Source of the DNA: a virus
DNA length: 30,068 nucleotides
Virus record (IMG/VR): IMGVR_UViG_3300030012_002049
Coordinates: 1 to 30,068 of that record
Direction: 5' to 3' (one strand)
Part shown: positions 4,408 to 28,752 of the stretch, in pieces
How positions within the stretch are numbered: position 1 is the first letter of the stretch
Layout of the letters: each line of letters starts with the position of its first letter
Program-made: the position numbers and the translations under genes
Notes under the pieces: generated by a model
Databases searched by the model: none
The model's input: the letters and a program-made list of their open reading frames with translations, nothing else
What the model was told of the DNA's origin: nothing

Positions 4408-5847
4408 CTAAATTGTTGATCTCCTTCTTATCGTTTCTAATTTGTTTTGACTGTTTGTCATGTCATCAGTAACCACAAATGCTTGAACAGGTTCAGGTGC
4501 TTGAACTCCACCTAAATCAAATGATCCTGATAATAAACTTGGTGTTGGTGTTCCACCACCTCCTGCTCCTGCTCCTGCTGAACCTTCTCCACCTGGTCCT
4601 TGTCCTGATGCTATTTTTCTAATCTGTAATGCTGCAAAAGTACCAGCAATTCCTGCTTGTATAAAATTATATCCTGGTATTAGGATATTTAATGGAGATG
4701 CAGATGCAGTTTTAAATGCGTTTTGTACAGATTCAACTCCACTTATAGTTGCTTGTGTTATTGCTACACCTTTTGCTAATGCTGTTCCTTTTCCTGCCGC
4801 TTCACCTAAAATTGCTAATCCTTGCTTAGCCATTGATTTTTTAGCATCAAGAACCATTTTTTCATTTTCTGCTTCTTGTTTTTTCCTTCTTTTTTCATCT
4901 TCAAATGCTTCGGTGTTTGCTTCTGCTAATTCAGTAACAGCTTCCATACCTAATCTTGGTATAGTTATTAGAGTACCTGTAAGTTGTGCATCTTGGTCTT
5001 TTAATTCTTGTAACTCCTCATCTCGTTTTGTTTGCGCTTCTTTTTTTATTGCATTAATTTTGTTATTAAGTTCGATTTGTTTTGTTAAACTTTCTCCTCT
5101 AATATTTGCTAAATTAATTTCTAATTGTGCTTCTCTATCTAAATCTTCTTGGTTTTTTATTTTATCTTTGTTTCTGTCTTTTTCTATTTGTACAGCTTTT
5201 TCTGCATTTGCAATCCTTTTTGCTAATAAATTATTTTCAATATCAAAAGCATCTTGTGCCGCTTTTAACCTTACTTGTTCTGACTTTGTAGTATCTTCTG
5301 CAATCAATTTTAATTCCTCTATATCCGCCCTACGTTTTGCTGTTTCTACAGATAGGTCTCTTTCATCATCTCGCAATTTTTGGAATGCTTTAGATAAGGC
5401 TAACGCTGATAAAGTATCTGTTTTTATTTCTGTTCCCATTTTTTTGAAAGAATTACCCATATCTGATAATCCTTCTTTAAATTTACCATCTAATATTTTT
5501 GCTATACCACCACCAAATTGTGCTACACGATCAATTAATACTCTAAATGTTGCACTTAATCCAGCCATTGCTGTTTCAAAAATCTCTGCACCTCTTTTTG
5601 TTTGTGTAAAATATGTGGCTAACGATCCAATAGCAACTACAAATGCACCAATTCCTGTTGATATTATACCTGCTTTTATTGATCTAAAAGATTTTTTAGC
5701 TGTTGCTGTCATTGTAGCAAAACCACCCTTAACATCTTTCAAAGATACACCCATAAAACTTATTTCTTGTGCTAATTCTTGTGCATCTTTTGTAGTGTCT
5801 TTTATATCCGATTTAACTTTTAACGTTACTTCCTGTGTTGTACTCAT
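4408..5847 (-). CDS. Tail tape measure protein, 479 aa
   Basis: This protein sets tail length and is likely threaded through the tube. It has the expected architecture: an N-terminal region with a hydrophobic stretch (about 58-80, GIISTGIGAFVVAIGSLATY), a long charged coiled coil (about 150-340), then an Ala/Gly-rich hydrophobic region (340-411, with ALAKGVAITQATISGVESVQ). A Gly-rich linker (415-434) and a tail ending in ETIRRRSTI follow. The ending VQAFVVTDDMTNSQNKLE is one I associate with tape measures of Bacteroidetes phages. At about 1.5 angstrom per residue the tail would be roughly 70 nm, short for a siphovirus. Unusually, it follows the baseplate and fibre genes and precedes the head protease. 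Confidence 0.85.
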   Translation of the reverse strand: MSTTQEVTLKVKSDIKDTTKDAQELAQEISFMGVSLKDVKGGFATMTATAKKSFRSIKAGIISTGIGAFVVAIGSLATYFTQTKRGAEIFETAMAGLSATFRVLIDRVAQFGGGIAKILDGKFKEGLSDMGNSFKKMGTEIKTDTLSALALSKAFQKLRDDERDLSVETAKRRADIEELKLIAEDTTKSEQVRLKAAQDAFDIENNLLAKRIANAEKAVQIEKDRNKDKIKNQEDLDREAQLEINLANIRGESLTKQIELNNKINAIKKEAQTKRDEELQELKDQDAQLTGTLITIPRLGMEAVTELAEANTEAFEDEKRRKKQEAENEKMVLDAKKSMAKQGLAILGEAAGKGTALAKGVAITQATISGVESVQNAFKTASASPLNILIPGYNFIQAGIAGTFAALQIRKIASGQGPGGEGSAGAGAGGGGTPTPSLLSGSFDLGGVQAPEPVQAFVVTDDMTNSQNKLETIRRRSTI

Positions 5848-12498: not shown

Positions 12499-12556
12499 AA
12501 GTTATTTTTGGTGGTATTAGTTGTATTGTTAATTTTCCTATTTTAAATTTTATCAT
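12488..12556 (-). CDS. Candidate micro-ORF, 22 aa
   Basis: This small reading frame encodes MIKFKIGKLTIQLIPPKITY plus GL. Its ATG overlaps the stop of the 164-aa gene (ATGA), and its stop lies inside the first codons of the 118-aa gene. It thus fills the 54-nt gap exactly, in the coupled style of the surrounding genes. The sequence is beta-prone with a Pro-Pro turn. It could be a true small virion peptide or only a translational bridge that carries ribosomes to the next start. No function can be assigned. Confidence 0.4.
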   Translation of the reverse strand: MIKFKIGKLTIQLIPPKITYGL

Positions 12557-13047
12557 TTTCCTATCGCTGTATTTTCCATTGGTATTGTACAAGTTTGGAA
12601 ACTATTTTCAACAGTTATTCCTATTGTAAAAGTCCAACCTGTTACTGCTTGATCAAAACGTTCTTTAAATGGTTCGAGTGTAAAATCTCCTTCTGCAAAA
12701 TATACAGGAGCATTAATATCTAAAGATAATTGTGATTGAAACTGTGAGTTTGATAATATACTTATTATATCAACGCATACCTGTAATAAATCACTATATA
12801 CTTCTTGCTCATTACTTAAATCAGGTTCTACCAAATCCATAATAAACACTTGGAAATTATATACTAATTCTGTTCTTCTTGTTTGTACATTAACAGGATT
12901 AAGGTGCATTAATGGATATTTTGTATTTTTCTCTAAATCAATGTCAAAAATATCTCCGACTGTAGTTGTCTGTATTTGTGCATGATTTGTGCCTAAATTT
13001 TTAAGAGTGTCTATTACGTTATTATATGTTTTGTTATTAATTGCCAT
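12553..13047 (-). CDS. Putative tail terminator/completion protein, 164 aa
   Basis: This is probably a tail terminator or tail completion protein. The N-terminal helix (YNNVIDTLKNLGTNHAQIQT) is followed by beta strands and PLMHLNPVNVQTRRTELVYN, FQVFIMDLVEPDLSNEQEVY, a long helix (LLQVCVDIISILSNS), and a last strand pair around PFKERFDQAVTGWTFTIGI. This alpha-beta layout and the 'D...GW.f.i.i' ending recall small tail-terminator-like proteins in Bacteroidetes phages. It follows the tail assembly chaperone: its start overlaps the end of the -1 frame reading by 11 nt, and its stop overlaps the micro-ORF start. The family assignment comes from pattern and position. Confidence 0.6.
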   Translation of the reverse strand: MAINNKTYNNVIDTLKNLGTNHAQIQTTTVGDIFDIDLEKNTKYPLMHLNPVNVQTRRTELVYNFQVFIMDLVEPDLSNEQEVYSDLLQVCVDIISILSNSQFQSQLSLDINAPVYFAEGDFTLEPFKERFDQAVTGWTFTIGITVENSFQTCTIPMENTAIGK

Positions 13048-13291
13048 TTATATTTACTTTATTTAAACTATCCAAATCTGTTTCATAACATAACCAAGTA
13101 AATGCTTCCATCAAATTAAGTTTTGTTATTTGTTCTAATTTACTTATATCTCCATTTGTTAATCTATACATTATACCAAAATATCCCCATTTGTCTGCAA
13201 ATGTTTCTCCTGCTTCGATGTTGTCATTTTCGCTATATTTTCGTTCAAATATGATAGCAAAGTCGTTGATAATACGCTTACGAAAGTCCAA
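13037..13291 (-). CDS. Tail assembly chaperone, -1 frame extension (T-like part), 84 codons
   Basis: This frame overlaps the 213-aa chaperone ORF by 121 nt and has no plausible start of its own. The only initiator-like codon at its left end is TTG inside the T-run, the next upstream in-frame codon of note is a stop (13334-13336), and the first ATG is 40 codons in. It is therefore best read as the second half of a frameshift product. A -1 slip on the T-run joins residue 174 of the upstream ORF to this segment, giving about 258 aa. Recognisable parts are ADKWGYFGIMYRLTNGDISK and LMEAFTWLCYETDLD. The stop overlaps the start of the next gene. Confidence 0.75.
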   Translation of the reverse strand: MDFRKRIINDFAIIFERKYSENDNIEAGETFADKWGYFGIMYRLTNGDISKLEQITKLNLMEAFTWLCYETDLDSLNKVNINGN

Positions 13292-13812
13292 AAAAAAACC
13301 ATTGCTCCTTGTACTTGTTCTGCTTTCATTTTCTTAAATTTCTCTGCCCTTATATTTATATTACCATTATATGCTTTTATTGTATATATATTTTGTTCTT
13401 TCTCTGTTATTTCTCTATACAATATTGCCATAATTTCAGGTAAACTTTTGTTGATGCCTTTTTGTACAAATGTTTCTATATCTGCCCACTCACCTAAAGT
13501 TATATCCTCTAAATTTGGATGAAAACCATATTCTACACCATCTATTTTAACTATATGCTTAAAATTTGTTTTTGTTTGTTTTTCAATGTTTTTGATCTGT
13601 TGCATAACTCTTGCAACATCACTTATACTTAATTGCCGAATTATTTTTTTTGGTATATTAGACAAAGCATAGATACTTTCTATTGCTTCTTGACTTGGTG
13701 ATAATCCTTCTAAGGCAATCAATTGCAACCATTTTTCTAATGTTACATCACTCCAAGTATTTATTAAGTTATATGTTTTCTTTTTACCGTCTTTTTCAAT
13801 TTTGACTTTCAT
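13171..13812 (-). CDS. Tail assembly chaperone, zero-frame product (G-like), 213 aa
   Basis: This is the likely lambda gpG-like chaperone that coats the tape measure during tail assembly. It is an alpha-helical protein with TWSDVTLEKWLQLIALEGLS near the N-terminus and GFHPNLEDITLGEWADIETF near residues 95-120. Residues 160-174 (KAEQVQGAMVFFW) run into a 9-T tract. Past this point the zero frame continues for about 40 residues and ends at 13171, while the -1 frame encodes the conserved-looking T part. It is the first gene after the large terminase, 30 nt downstream. Its start codon is the end of leader motif copy 3. Confidence 0.75.
   Translation of the reverse strand: MKVKIEKDGKKKTYNLINTWSDVTLEKWLQLIALEGLSPSQEAIESIYALSNIPKKIIRQLSISDVARVMQQIKNIEKQTKTNFKHIVKIDGVEYGFHPNLEDITLGEWADIETFVQKGINKSLPEIMAILYREITEKEQNIYTIKAYNGNINIRAEKFKKMKAEQVQGAMVFFWTFVSVLSTTLLSYLNENIAKMTTSKQEKHLQTNGDILV
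13291..13310 (-). promoter_or_regulatory. Probable programmed -1 ribosomal frameshift site
   Basis: On the minus strand nine T residues (13298-13290) lie in zero frame as GTT TTT TTT TGG. The heptamer T TTT TTT (13297-13291) fits the X XXY YYZ slippery pattern. A -1 shift continues as TTG GAC TTT CGT into the 84-codon frame. AAGGAG (13305-13310) sits 6 nt upstream of the T tract, a Shine-Dalgarno-like element of the kind that stimulates -1 shifting in E. coli dnaX. No strong downstream hairpin is apparent. Confidence 0.78.
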
Positions 13813-13842: not shown

Positions 13843-15177
13843 TTAATGTACATAATATTTACCATAATTACCATCTATCTCATAATACATTCGCATAGCA
13901 ATCGCGTCTGCATAATCAGGTGACCTACCTATTATTGTTTTAATATTATCTTTTGGTATTATTTGTAATTTATTGTCTTTGTCTGCATCTTTTGTTCTGA
14001 CTTGTTCCAATTCTTCTATAATTTCATGTTTAACACTAACATCTTCACAATTTATGCCTATTTGTCCTTTGTTGATCAAATCAGCCATTTTATAGTAACA
14101 TTGTGTTTTAAGGTTTTGGTAATTTTCTCCTTTTAATGCCCTGCTATTGTTTACAAAACCCTGGCAACGTAAATAATCTTTAGCCCCTCCACCTACTCCA
14201 TCTTCATCAATTATAATATTCCTTAATGGTACACTATTTTCTTGTTGCAATTGTCTAACTTCGCTTACAACATCATTTATAGCCGATTTAAGCAATGTTT
14301 TTATCTTTTTAATATGTAACCCTTCCCAATACATAATAATCGTTCTATCATTACCAAAACGCGCTACATCGCAACTTATGTATTTATCACCACTTATGCC
14401 TTGTTGTTCAAACATATTTAGTATAGCATCATATTCTATCAGGTTGTCTTTTGTTGCATCATATTCCCAATTACCAAATAATAATCTTTGTTTTGATAAT
14501 TCATCTAAAGTTTCTAATTGTTTTTTGTAATATTTGCTTATATATTCATTATCATCTACTAAACTTTGTATAAATTGTCTATATGGTTTTTGTTTGCCTT
14601 CTTTTGCAGGTCGATAGTATTGAGTGTAAACCCAATTTTTAGCAGGGTTGCAAGTCATTAACAATTTTGGTATTAGATTATTCTCATCAAGTTTATACCG
14701 CAACCTAGATGCTACAATGTTTTTTGCTTTTTCGGTTATTTGGTTTGCTTCATCAATAAAAGCACCTGTAATTTCTAAAGAACCTAAATTGTCAAAATTC
14801 TTATCTGATGGATATAAGAATAAATCTTTTAATATGATTTCTGATTTATTGTAAAATGTTATAATATTAGAACCTGCGTTAAAATGGTAATGCTTATTTG
14901 CTTCTAAGTTCCAATGATCACAAACTTCGAAAAATGTATTTAATGTAGTTTTCTTTAAACTGTCTAATTTAGATCTACCCATTAAATATCTAGTTTTATG
15001 GTTTTGTAGGCACATAAATATTAACCACGCACAACCTACCCACGATTTACCTCCACCTGCCGCACCTCCAAAAAGTATTTCTGTTGTTACATTGTCAAAT
15101 AGATACTTTATTGCTTTTTGTTGTGTATGCGTAAACTTAATATCTTGCCAACCTGTTTCATTGCTCAATTCCATCAA
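13843..15177 (-). CDS. terL: Terminase large subunit, 444 aa
   Basis: This is the DNA packaging motor with ATPase and nuclease domains. The ATPase shows Walker A GGAAGGGKS (37-45), Walker B AFIDEA (139-144) with the catalytic Glu, and coupling motif TCNPA (175-179). The RNase H-like nuclease shows Asp270 in SCDVARFGNDRT, Asp324 in IIIDEDGVGGG, and Asp421/Asp424 in SPDYADAIAM. The length is usual for compact TerL proteins. It overlaps the small terminase by 20 nt and precedes the tail assembly chaperone rather than a portal gene. Residues MM at the start leave two possible initiators one codon apart. Confidence 0.95.
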   Translation of the reverse strand: MMELSNETGWQDIKFTHTQQKAIKYLFDNVTTEILFGGAAGGGKSWVGCAWLIFMCLQNHKTRYLMGRSKLDSLKKTTLNTFFEVCDHWNLEANKHYHFNAGSNIITFYNKSEIILKDLFLYPSDKNFDNLGSLEITGAFIDEANQITEKAKNIVASRLRYKLDENNLIPKLLMTCNPAKNWVYTQYYRPAKEGKQKPYRQFIQSLVDDNEYISKYYKKQLETLDELSKQRLLFGNWEYDATKDNLIEYDAILNMFEQQGISGDKYISCDVARFGNDRTIIMYWEGLHIKKIKTLLKSAINDVVSEVRQLQQENSVPLRNIIIDEDGVGGGAKDYLRCQGFVNNSRALKGENYQNLKTQCYYKMADLINKGQIGINCEDVSVKHEIIEELEQVRTKDADKDNKLQIIPKDNIKTIIGRSPDYADAIAMRMYYEIDGNYGKYYVH

Positions 15178-26598: not shown

Positions 26599-28752
26599 TT
26601 AATTTAAAAATCCATTATTTACCATAGTTTTAGGTGCTTTTGCAACCAAACTATCATTTCTTTTTATTGTAAATCCTTCACTTCTTGCCTTTGTTACACT
26701 AATGCTAATATTACTTTCTATATTACTCGGATATACTACATTATCATCTTCACTTGCAATTGTTTTAAAAATTCTGCGTTTCCAATAATGGTGACAATTT
26801 GCGCCTCCTTTAAAGAGCCAGACATTGTAAGTGTTTGCTCCATTTGGTCCCCAACCAGGATTTACAGACAAATTATTCATTCTAATAATATCCTCTTTAC
26901 GATACAACTTATTAGCGTTCATCATTAATCTACAAAATTCTCTACTAGGATATTTCCTTGACAATGATCTATTTTCTGCATATTGATATCTAACTTTATA
27001 GAATGCAGTTTGTTTTTTGTTTAGTCCATCTTGTTCACTTCTAGTGTTTTTATTGGACCTTCCTGTTGATGCTAATTCTATTTTTTCGTTTGCTATTTTA
27101 TTTAATTCTTCTTCAAAATTAAAATCTTCATGCTCATTACCTACATCTTCTTCATCTATCAATTCCCAACCATCAGGAATATTCTCACCATAATCCTCAA
27201 TAAATTGTCCTAATGCTGTTTTATTAGAAAATCTTTTTATTTCCTTAGCGTTTACAGGAACACAATTAGGAACCTCTTTACCATCTTTTATTTTTGTACC
27301 TATTGCTTCATATCCAGGCCAACATGGATTTGGTGTAATAAATTCTTCTTTACAATTACAATCTTTTAAATTTGTAATTTGTTCATGATCACTACATGGC
27401 ATATATACTGTTTGTCCATTTAGTTCATGTTCATGATAACCTTCGCAACCTAATTCCTTTGCTTTTGTTTCTGCTTCTTCTATTGTGCTATATACAGGTA
27501 AACCATCAATATCTCCTACTTTACTAAACTCTTCTTTTACTTGTACTTTTTCTGTTTCTTCTAATGGTTTTAAACCTAATTCCTCTCTAATTTCTTCTTG
27601 TGTCATTACCTCTTTCATGTCCTCATAAGTCCATTTAGTGGTTATTGGTTTTAATTGTACAAACTCTAAAGGTAAATTTATGTTATTTACTTCCAATATA
27701 GTGGATAAAGTTTTAAGTATATGTTTTTGGTATGGTCTAACGACTGTATTATTGTAAAATTCTGCAGATGCGTTTAATTCATCAACATTTGATCCTAAAC
27801 CTGTATCATTCTTAATTCCCATTAACATTGGACTTGTAACTCTATGTGCTGTTAAAATATTCTGTACTAATAATTCTTGTAGTGCCAAATATTGTTTGTC
27901 TGCATTACTTACAGCAATTGGTGTAATTTCAGGAACTCTATTTCTATCTTCACTAAATGTTAATACAAACCTACCTGCTGTTTCACTTCCTGTAAACTTT
28001 TCTGCTAAACTTTTTTCGATTTCAAACCTTTCTTCTTGTGTTGGAATACCATTAGCGAAAGATATAAAGTATGAACCCGAGAAACCATTAGAAATGTTGT
28101 TTAGATGGAACTCAGCAACTTTCTGGTCTACAAGTGCCCAATTACATCCTGCTTGGTAATCAGGAGTGTGGTATATATCCATGTTAGGACTATAAGCACC
28201 AGTATATAACAATTGACTAGGATTTGTTCTGTCATTAACATTAAATGCTTTTATTGGATATGGTTTATTCATTCTTGTATTTGACCAATCTGCGCTTATA
28301 TAATATGTGTCTATTTTACCCATTTCATTTGGTCTACCTGCTCTAACTCTTTCTACAGGTACATGATATATTTCCGCTATTTCTGTCCTTGCATTATTCC
28401 ATATTATATGTATTGCGTAGGCTCCTTGTAGTTTAAAATCAAATGCTAATTTTCTTACTATTTGATGTAAACTTTCTTTACCATTAGCATGAGCCATAAA
28501 CTTTTTAAGTTTTACAAATGTATCTAATGAGTGTTCATCTTCACAAATTATATCTTCTCCTGCAATCATATCACTTGTAGCATTTATTATTGCCGCATGA
28601 GTGGAACTATTATAATACAAATCAATTAGAAACTGTGGATATAAATTTCTCCAATCTTTTGTGCCATACTCCATATAATCTTTTCCTCTTACTTCTTGTA
28701 TTTCAGGAGCAGTTTGGCTTTCTAAATTTATATTTAAAATATTGTTTTTCAT
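26599..28752 (-). CDS. Portal protein with Cys-rich C-terminal modules, 717 aa
   Basis: The first ~395 residues are a portal: KDWRNLYPQFLIDLYYNSST, a helical/beta core with VPVERVRAGRPNEMGKIDTY, and the stem region QELLVQNILTAHRVTSPMLM followed by GLGSNVDELNASAEFYNNTV. The remaining ~320 residues hold extra modules: GCEGYHEHELNGQTVYMPCSDH-type (about 435-456, shown in part), NPCWPGYEAIGTKIKDGKE with VPNCVP (475-499), and a C-terminal domain (584-664) with SREFCRLMMNANKLYRKEDI and GGANCHHYW. These modules recur in Bacteroidetes phage portal or protease polyproteins; their Cys/His content suggests metal binding. The gene is far from terL and downstream of the capsid gene, which is unusual. Confidence 0.85.
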   Translation of the reverse strand: MKNNILNINLESQTAPEIQEVRGKDYMEYGTKDWRNLYPQFLIDLYYNSSTHAAIINATSDMIAGEDIICEDEHSLDTFVKLKKFMAHANGKESLHQIVRKLAFDFKLQGAYAIHIIWNNARTEIAEIYHVPVERVRAGRPNEMGKIDTYYISADWSNTRMNKPYPIKAFNVNDRTNPSQLLYTGAYSPNMDIYHTPDYQAGCNWALVDQKVAEFHLNNISNGFSGSYFISFANGIPTQEERFEIEKSLAEKFTGSETAGRFVLTFSEDRNRVPEITPIAVSNADKQYLALQELLVQNILTAHRVTSPMLMGIKNDTGLGSNVDELNASAEFYNNTVVRPYQKHILKTLSTILEVNNINLPLEFVQLKPITTKWTYEDMKEVMTQEEIREELGLKPLEETEKVQVKEEFSKVGDIDGLPVYSTIEEAETKAKELGCEGYHEHELNGQTVYMPCSDHEQITNLKDCNCKEEFITPNPCWPGYEAIGTKIKDGKEVPNCVPVNAKEIKRFSNKTALGQFIEDYGENIPDGWELIDEEDVGNEHEDFNFEEELNKIANEKIELASTGRSNKNTRSEQDGLNKKQTAFYKVRYQYAENRSLSRKYPSREFCRLMMNANKLYRKEDIIRMNNLSVNPGWGPNGANTYNVWLFKGGANCHHYWKRRIFKTIASEDDNVVYPSNIESNISISVTKARSEGFTIKRNDSLVAKAPKTMVNNGFLN

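Follow-up and report, generated by a model that had tools for sequence, protein, structure and literature searches.

The marine phage record analysed here, a stretch of 30,068 bases that we call the window (GC content of 23-33% in 2-kb windows), has nearly all of its large genes on the minus strand, and two overlapping reading frames among them raise the question of whether they are two genes or one and, if one, which machine carries expression from the first frame into the second. The frame-0 ORF (13171..13812, minus strand) begins with an ATG and encodes a protein of 213 aa, G, that is conserved in 251 loci. The second part, the T domain (13037..13291, minus strand), comprises 84 codons in the -1 frame; it lacks an upstream start codon and would be reached only via a frame change, and the first codon of its ORF is a TTG at 13291, where a run of T's ends. 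Over 121 nt (13171..13291, minus strand) both frames are read, giving the tail of G in frame 0 and the start of the T domain in the -1 frame, and the final 39 residues of G are the tail translated 3' of the run. The site of the frame change is a tract of nine T's (13290..13298, minus strand) read in frame 0 as GTT TTT TTT TGG, within which the heptamer T_TTT_TTT (13291..13297, minus strand) forms a possible slip site for tandem tRNA-Phe. A -1 join at the tract gives a fusion of 174 + 84 = 258 aa. The window's coordinates and sequence bear out what the initial annotation had claimed here: ORFs of 213 aa and 84 codons overlapping by 121 nt, the reading of the tract with its heptamer at 13297-13291, and a fusion of about 258 aa. 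A large terminase gene (13843..15177, minus strand) lies directly upstream of G, as it also does in Nonlabens phage P12024S, and a 164-aa gene (12553..13047, minus strand) lies just 3' of the T domain, its start overlapping the T-domain end by 11 nt. The comparisons below indicate that this is one recoded gene, not two, and show that the frame relation is conserved.

The frame relation among relatives

We collected close relatives by protein-pattern scans of viral contigs with either gene part and, since the queries were peptides rather than the run, there was no selection for the T-run itself. This close group comprises 251 loci; the window is one of them, and three others are contigs that had been binned into metagenome-assembled genomes (MAGs) and were the only matches of a prokaryote-genome scan. 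These contigs of the phage group (L164, L165 and L166) have been assigned, probably through binning errors, to MAGs that bear the labels Pseudooceanicola and Euryarchaeota. Both parts are encoded in 250 of the 251 loci, the exception (L079) ending within G, and the second part stands in the -1 frame to the first in 250/250. Some loci are repeat fetches of single contigs, so our counts use unique 420-nt segments (n = 157). In 151 of these segments nine T's start from codon position 2, in five nine T's start from position 1, and one has ten. The two Phe residues at the run are invariant in the close-relative alignment, and the T domain of close relatives has an invariant W, a G.MYRL-like motif and a TWL.YE motif.

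More distant relatives were reached through protein structure. When G was modelled with AlphaFold (mean pLDDT 76), the model matched gp38 of the cultured flavobacterial phage P12024S among predicted viral structures (E = 1e-11). This gp38 directly follows the large terminase and ends in ATA CTT TTT TTT TAT CAT, with nine T's, from which the -1 frame runs on into a T domain whose end alone is annotated, as gp39. Profile comparison with P12024S gave E = 4e-16 for G and E = 4.5e-6 for T, and phrog_32199 and phrog_38404 match gp38/gp39 over their full length. The deposited genome (NC_018271.1, 23136-23830; L259) lists gp38 and gp39 as two unconnected hypothetical proteins; by sequence they belong to one recoded gene, whose T-domain start is unannotated. 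An alignment including P12024S added 80 loci, most of them of 26-37% identity, with overall identity down to about 25%, and all 77 of sufficient reach have both parts, the -1 relation and a join at nine or ten T's. Sixty-five of these 77 are unique, which together with the 157 close segments gives 222 unique sequences. One relative of 54% GC (L338) keeps the nine T's although its fetched coding sequence contains only two T-runs of at least five, this T9 being one of the two; the T8 run of this relative (4851-4858), in an open frame about 390 nt 3' of the T9, may mark a further recoding site or have arisen by chance.

A direct tblastn of phage-collection isolates found no match to G or T, and isolates with similar terminases (11b, phi10:1, Versailles, P12002L and BS-TP3) have no G or T recognisable by tblastn. 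We did not count Flavobacterium phage 6H, in which a protein with a weak fold match to G has TGT TTT TTC TAT near its ORF end and the -1 frame closes at once. In the same phage (L260, 10352-10927, minus strand) there is a T-like open stretch past a -1 stop, for which another joining scheme is possible.

The homologue alignment proposed as a check on the initial annotation finds the T-run and the -1 relation kept in 250 close and 77 distant loci. It had named one continuous ORF in relatives as the result that would speak against a frame change, and no such in-frame version occurs among the 327 loci. Since homopolymers are error-prone and mutable, one might suspect a miscounted homopolymer, a pseudogene or a T-run that varies in phase at the DNA level. 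However, the identical -1 relation in 327/327 loci, from independent assemblies and with an isolate genome besides, and the conservation of both parts at the protein level make this the least probable of all the readings that we considered, and we reject miscount and pseudogene on that conserved relation. We likewise regard it as very improbable that T is expressed as an independent gene from a TTG or another weak start that lies within the run or immediately ahead of it. The window does have a TTG at 13291, and the end of T has been annotated as a gene of its own in P12024S. However, from the upstream stop to the end of the run the second frame has no ATG, GTG or TTG in 118/222 sequences and an upstream ATG in 0/222, and the first in-frame ATG of T mostly lies about 42 codons in, past conserved residues. 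This start-codon survey rejects an internal start and agrees with the earlier statement that the second frame has no usable start. Sequencing error, pseudogene and internal initiation are, on these sequence comparisons, effectively excluded.

Past the run, frame 0 reaches its stop after a median of 38 codons, versus 6 when the -1 frame is recoded synonymously, in a test whose rows are not independent and whose mean tail probability is 0.17; the third frame meets a stop after a median of one codon. Frame 0 has seemingly been kept open, and the tail of G may therefore matter in itself.

Shine-Dalgarno elements and RNA structure as candidate stimulators

The initial annotation had described a programmed, G/GT-like frame change and, as its Shine-Dalgarno (SD)-like stimulator, an AAGGAG resembling that of E. 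coli dnaX. The frame change joining two conserved coding parts stands, but the stimulator does not. The hexamer (13305..13310, minus strand) is indeed upstream of the heptamer, at a distance of seven nt rather than the 6 nt given, and it also occurs in two relatives (L218 and L223). However, AAGGAG is found in 3/157 unique close relatives (1.9%, versus 0.4% for 14-nt windows across that gene) and absent from the other 154, and AGGA is less frequent at the site than in windows drawn at random from the gene (1.9% versus 5.6%). An AGGAG, GGAG or GAGG leader was found in 0/28 window genes tested, the leaders being A/T-rich. Ribosomes of Bacteroidia fail at SD recognition, the 3' tail of the 16S rRNA that holds the anti-SD being sequestered (PMC9976891), and the prfB shift, which an SD sequence drives, is inefficient in Flavobacterium johnsoniae (PMC12421855). 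Because the element is unconserved and the window genes lack SD leaders, we reject an SD stimulator, judge the hexamer non-functional and hold a dnaX-like ribosomal shift stimulated by AAGGAG to be highly improbable. The resemblance to E. coli dnaX comes down to a heptamer of one repeated base and a hexamer that lies upstream in the window rather than in the group at large, whereas the SD element is unconserved, a downstream hairpin is absent and the host class lacks SD pairing.

RNA structure fared no better as a stimulator. Pseudoknot-free folds of single sequences downstream of the site were no better than the control (mean z of -0.25 versus -0.05), 36 aligned sequences shared no pseudoknot-free consensus structure, and Rfam had no match at the locus. 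On these pseudoknot-free folds we reject an RNA stimulator.

The length of the T-run and the probable slipping machine

Runs of nine T's are not above chance in the window (3 on both strands versus 11.6 expected from shuffles), and the significance of the tract comes from its conservation across relatives, not from its frequency in the window. Among the 222 unique sequences the run has nine T's in 207 and ten in 15, and never fewer. Three registers are used: NTT TTT TTT T.. in 210 sequences, TTT TTT TTT followed by G or C in 10, and AAT TTT TTT TTG in two. A tree of 81 representatives, a quick tree with long branches flagged, has at least six changes of register, or at least nine when register and length are taken together. 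Codon 1 is TTT in 7/7 representatives whose codon 4 has a first base other than T, compared with 0/74 of the others, although these tips are not independent. This pattern and the register changes indicate that the residues at the ends of the run vary while its length is constant. Elsewhere in the coding sequence of these loci, about 640 kb in all, nine T's occur once. The Phe codons of G upstream of the run are TTT in 84% of cases, a share at which codon preference alone is insufficient to explain an invariant TTT TTT across lineages. Both frames being coding limits what the run may become, and register changes are few, two points that count against the polymerase slippage favoured below.

Two side observations concern runs in general and one variant in particular. 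With synonymous shuffling as the reference, runs of at least nine A's outside G are strongly depleted in related loci (22 found, 105 expected), and T9 runs outside G are rare in both (1 found, 2 expected). The variant CGG TTT TTT TTT GCT TTA GGG occurs on separate tree branches (L124, L175 and L218), which suggests short-segment recombination or recurrent change; it may have been spread by recombination.

We consider that the frame change is caused mainly by RNA polymerase slippage on the T-run, with a probability of about 60%. What favours polymerase slippage is the floor of nine T's in three registers, which is beyond the need of a heptamer, since T_TTT_TTY requires merely six or seven T's. 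RNA polymerase is known to slip once a run reaches nine, as in Shigella mxiE and Thermus dnaX. Ribosomal shifts frequently depend on an SD element or an RNA structure, and the lack of a conserved one points the same way. In many bacteria selection against A/T runs likewise sets in at nine nt, and in Shigella mxiE one inserted U joins two ORFs (Baranov et al., PMC1088944). Translation of altered runs was computed for our locus: ten U's lead to the 258-aa product, and eight or eleven to a stop at 177-178 aa.

Under this proposal most expression would yield the 213-aa frame-0 protein G, and a minority would enter the -1 frame at the T9 tract to yield the 258-aa GT, which would have residues 1-174 in common with G followed by the 84-residue T domain. 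RNA polymerase would slip on the nine T's so that part of the mRNAs carry ten U's, and ordinary translation of these would produce GT; the heptamer within the tract may let ribosomes contribute. The likely role would be that of lambda gpG/gpGT, with two forms of a tail assembly chaperone made in a set ratio, the ratio being our extrapolation.

Alternatively, two tRNA-Phe could slip together on T_TTT_TTT in a programmed but unstimulated -1 ribosomal frameshift of the lambda kind, with an identical GT product. Other tailed phages recode G/GT on the ribosome (PMC5009743), and the heptamer is in register in 222/222 unique sequences, including one with CTT TTT TTT TTC (L063). This presence of T_TTT_TTT or T_TTT_TTC in every sequence is a point against a polymerase-only reading, and a longer U-run could raise ribosomal slippage too. 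However, the run never has 7 or 8 T's although the heptamer requires only 7, neither an SD element nor an RNA fold was found as a stimulator, and in E. coli U_UUU_UUU reportedly shifts far less readily than A_AAA_AAG (PMC5009743). On balance we regard a ribosomal origin as possible but somewhat doubtful, and polymerase and ribosome may both contribute. One added U and a -1 slip yield the identical 258-aa product, so protein data cannot separate the two mechanisms.

Protein identity and comparison with known systems

G is likely a tail assembly chaperone acting like G/GT, a label that we infer from weak fold matches and genomic setting; membership in this class is plausible. Against solved structures G had no significant match (HK97 chaperone 2ob9 at E = 5), and neither profile nor fold searches against solved structures gave a significant chaperone match. 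There were weak matches to two predicted viral proteins that carry the name tail assembly chaperone (probabilities of 0.87 and 0.99, E = 0.03 and 0.17, respectively), phrog_166, a tail protein family, matched weakly in 4/36, and Pfam had nothing above cut-off for either part. The T-domain model is of low confidence (pLDDT 63) and its best matches are unnamed short viral proteins. The setting is that of a phage, with portal, head protease, terminase and probable tape measure genes in one direction. The candidate tape measure protein (4408..5847, minus strand; 479 aa), with which a tail chaperone would be expected to pair, lies about 7 kb downstream and matches a phrog for tail length tape measure (E = 1e-5).

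The protein ratio that tail building requires is set, in lambda, by G/GT recoding. Our gene resembles lambda gpG/gpGT in its overlapping frames with a -1 join near the end of the first, in its short product and longer fusion, in a second frame without a start of its own and in its place in a phage structural gene cluster. In contrast, slippage would take place on an invariant run of nine or more T's rather than on a heptamer of the G_GGA_AAG type, the gene follows the large terminase instead of lying between major tail protein and tape measure, and frame 0 runs on for about 38 codons past the site; neither its sequence nor a comparison with solved structures ties it significantly to gpG or HK97 gp13. 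Shigella mxiE, like Thermus dnaX and IS elements with A9 or T9, shares the nine-base homopolymer that joins overlapping ORFs by one added nucleotide, with SD or structure unnecessary. Unlike mxiE, ours is a phage virion gene for an unrelated protein, has a tandem-slip heptamer as well, and its slippage is predicted from sequence. A further known system is gp38/gp39 of the Nonlabens (Persicivirga) phages P12024S and P12024L, with homologous G and T, the same -1 relation, nine T's and post-terminase position. These differ in being about 23-25% identical and in being annotated as two unrelated hypothetical proteins, with T cut at a downstream ATG.

We hold it an even bet that, throughout a superfamily of marine Bacteroidota phages to which P12024S belongs, polymerase slippage on at least nine T's fixes the ratio between two chaperone forms and replaces the ribosomal G/GT scheme. 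A G/GT-like gene fixed on a nine-T run at about 25% identity suggests that the same outcome may be attained at the transcription step, and recoding at this step would fit Bacteroidia hosts, whose ribosomes cannot sense SD stimulators. We found no report of transcriptional slippage in tail chaperones in the open-access literature. The T domain of such phages, including at least one cultured phage, has been annotated as an orphan ORF.

The host is probably a member of the Bacteroidota, given that the large terminase is nearest to those of Flavobacterium phage 11b (52.7%) and Cellulophaga phage phi10:1 (51.2%) and that the recoded gene is common to a Nonlabens phage; both agree with the earlier view of a probable Bacteroidetes phage. 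The portal protein (window 26599-28752) is of unusual length, at 717 aa, and has a C-terminal extension with a DUF3721 match.
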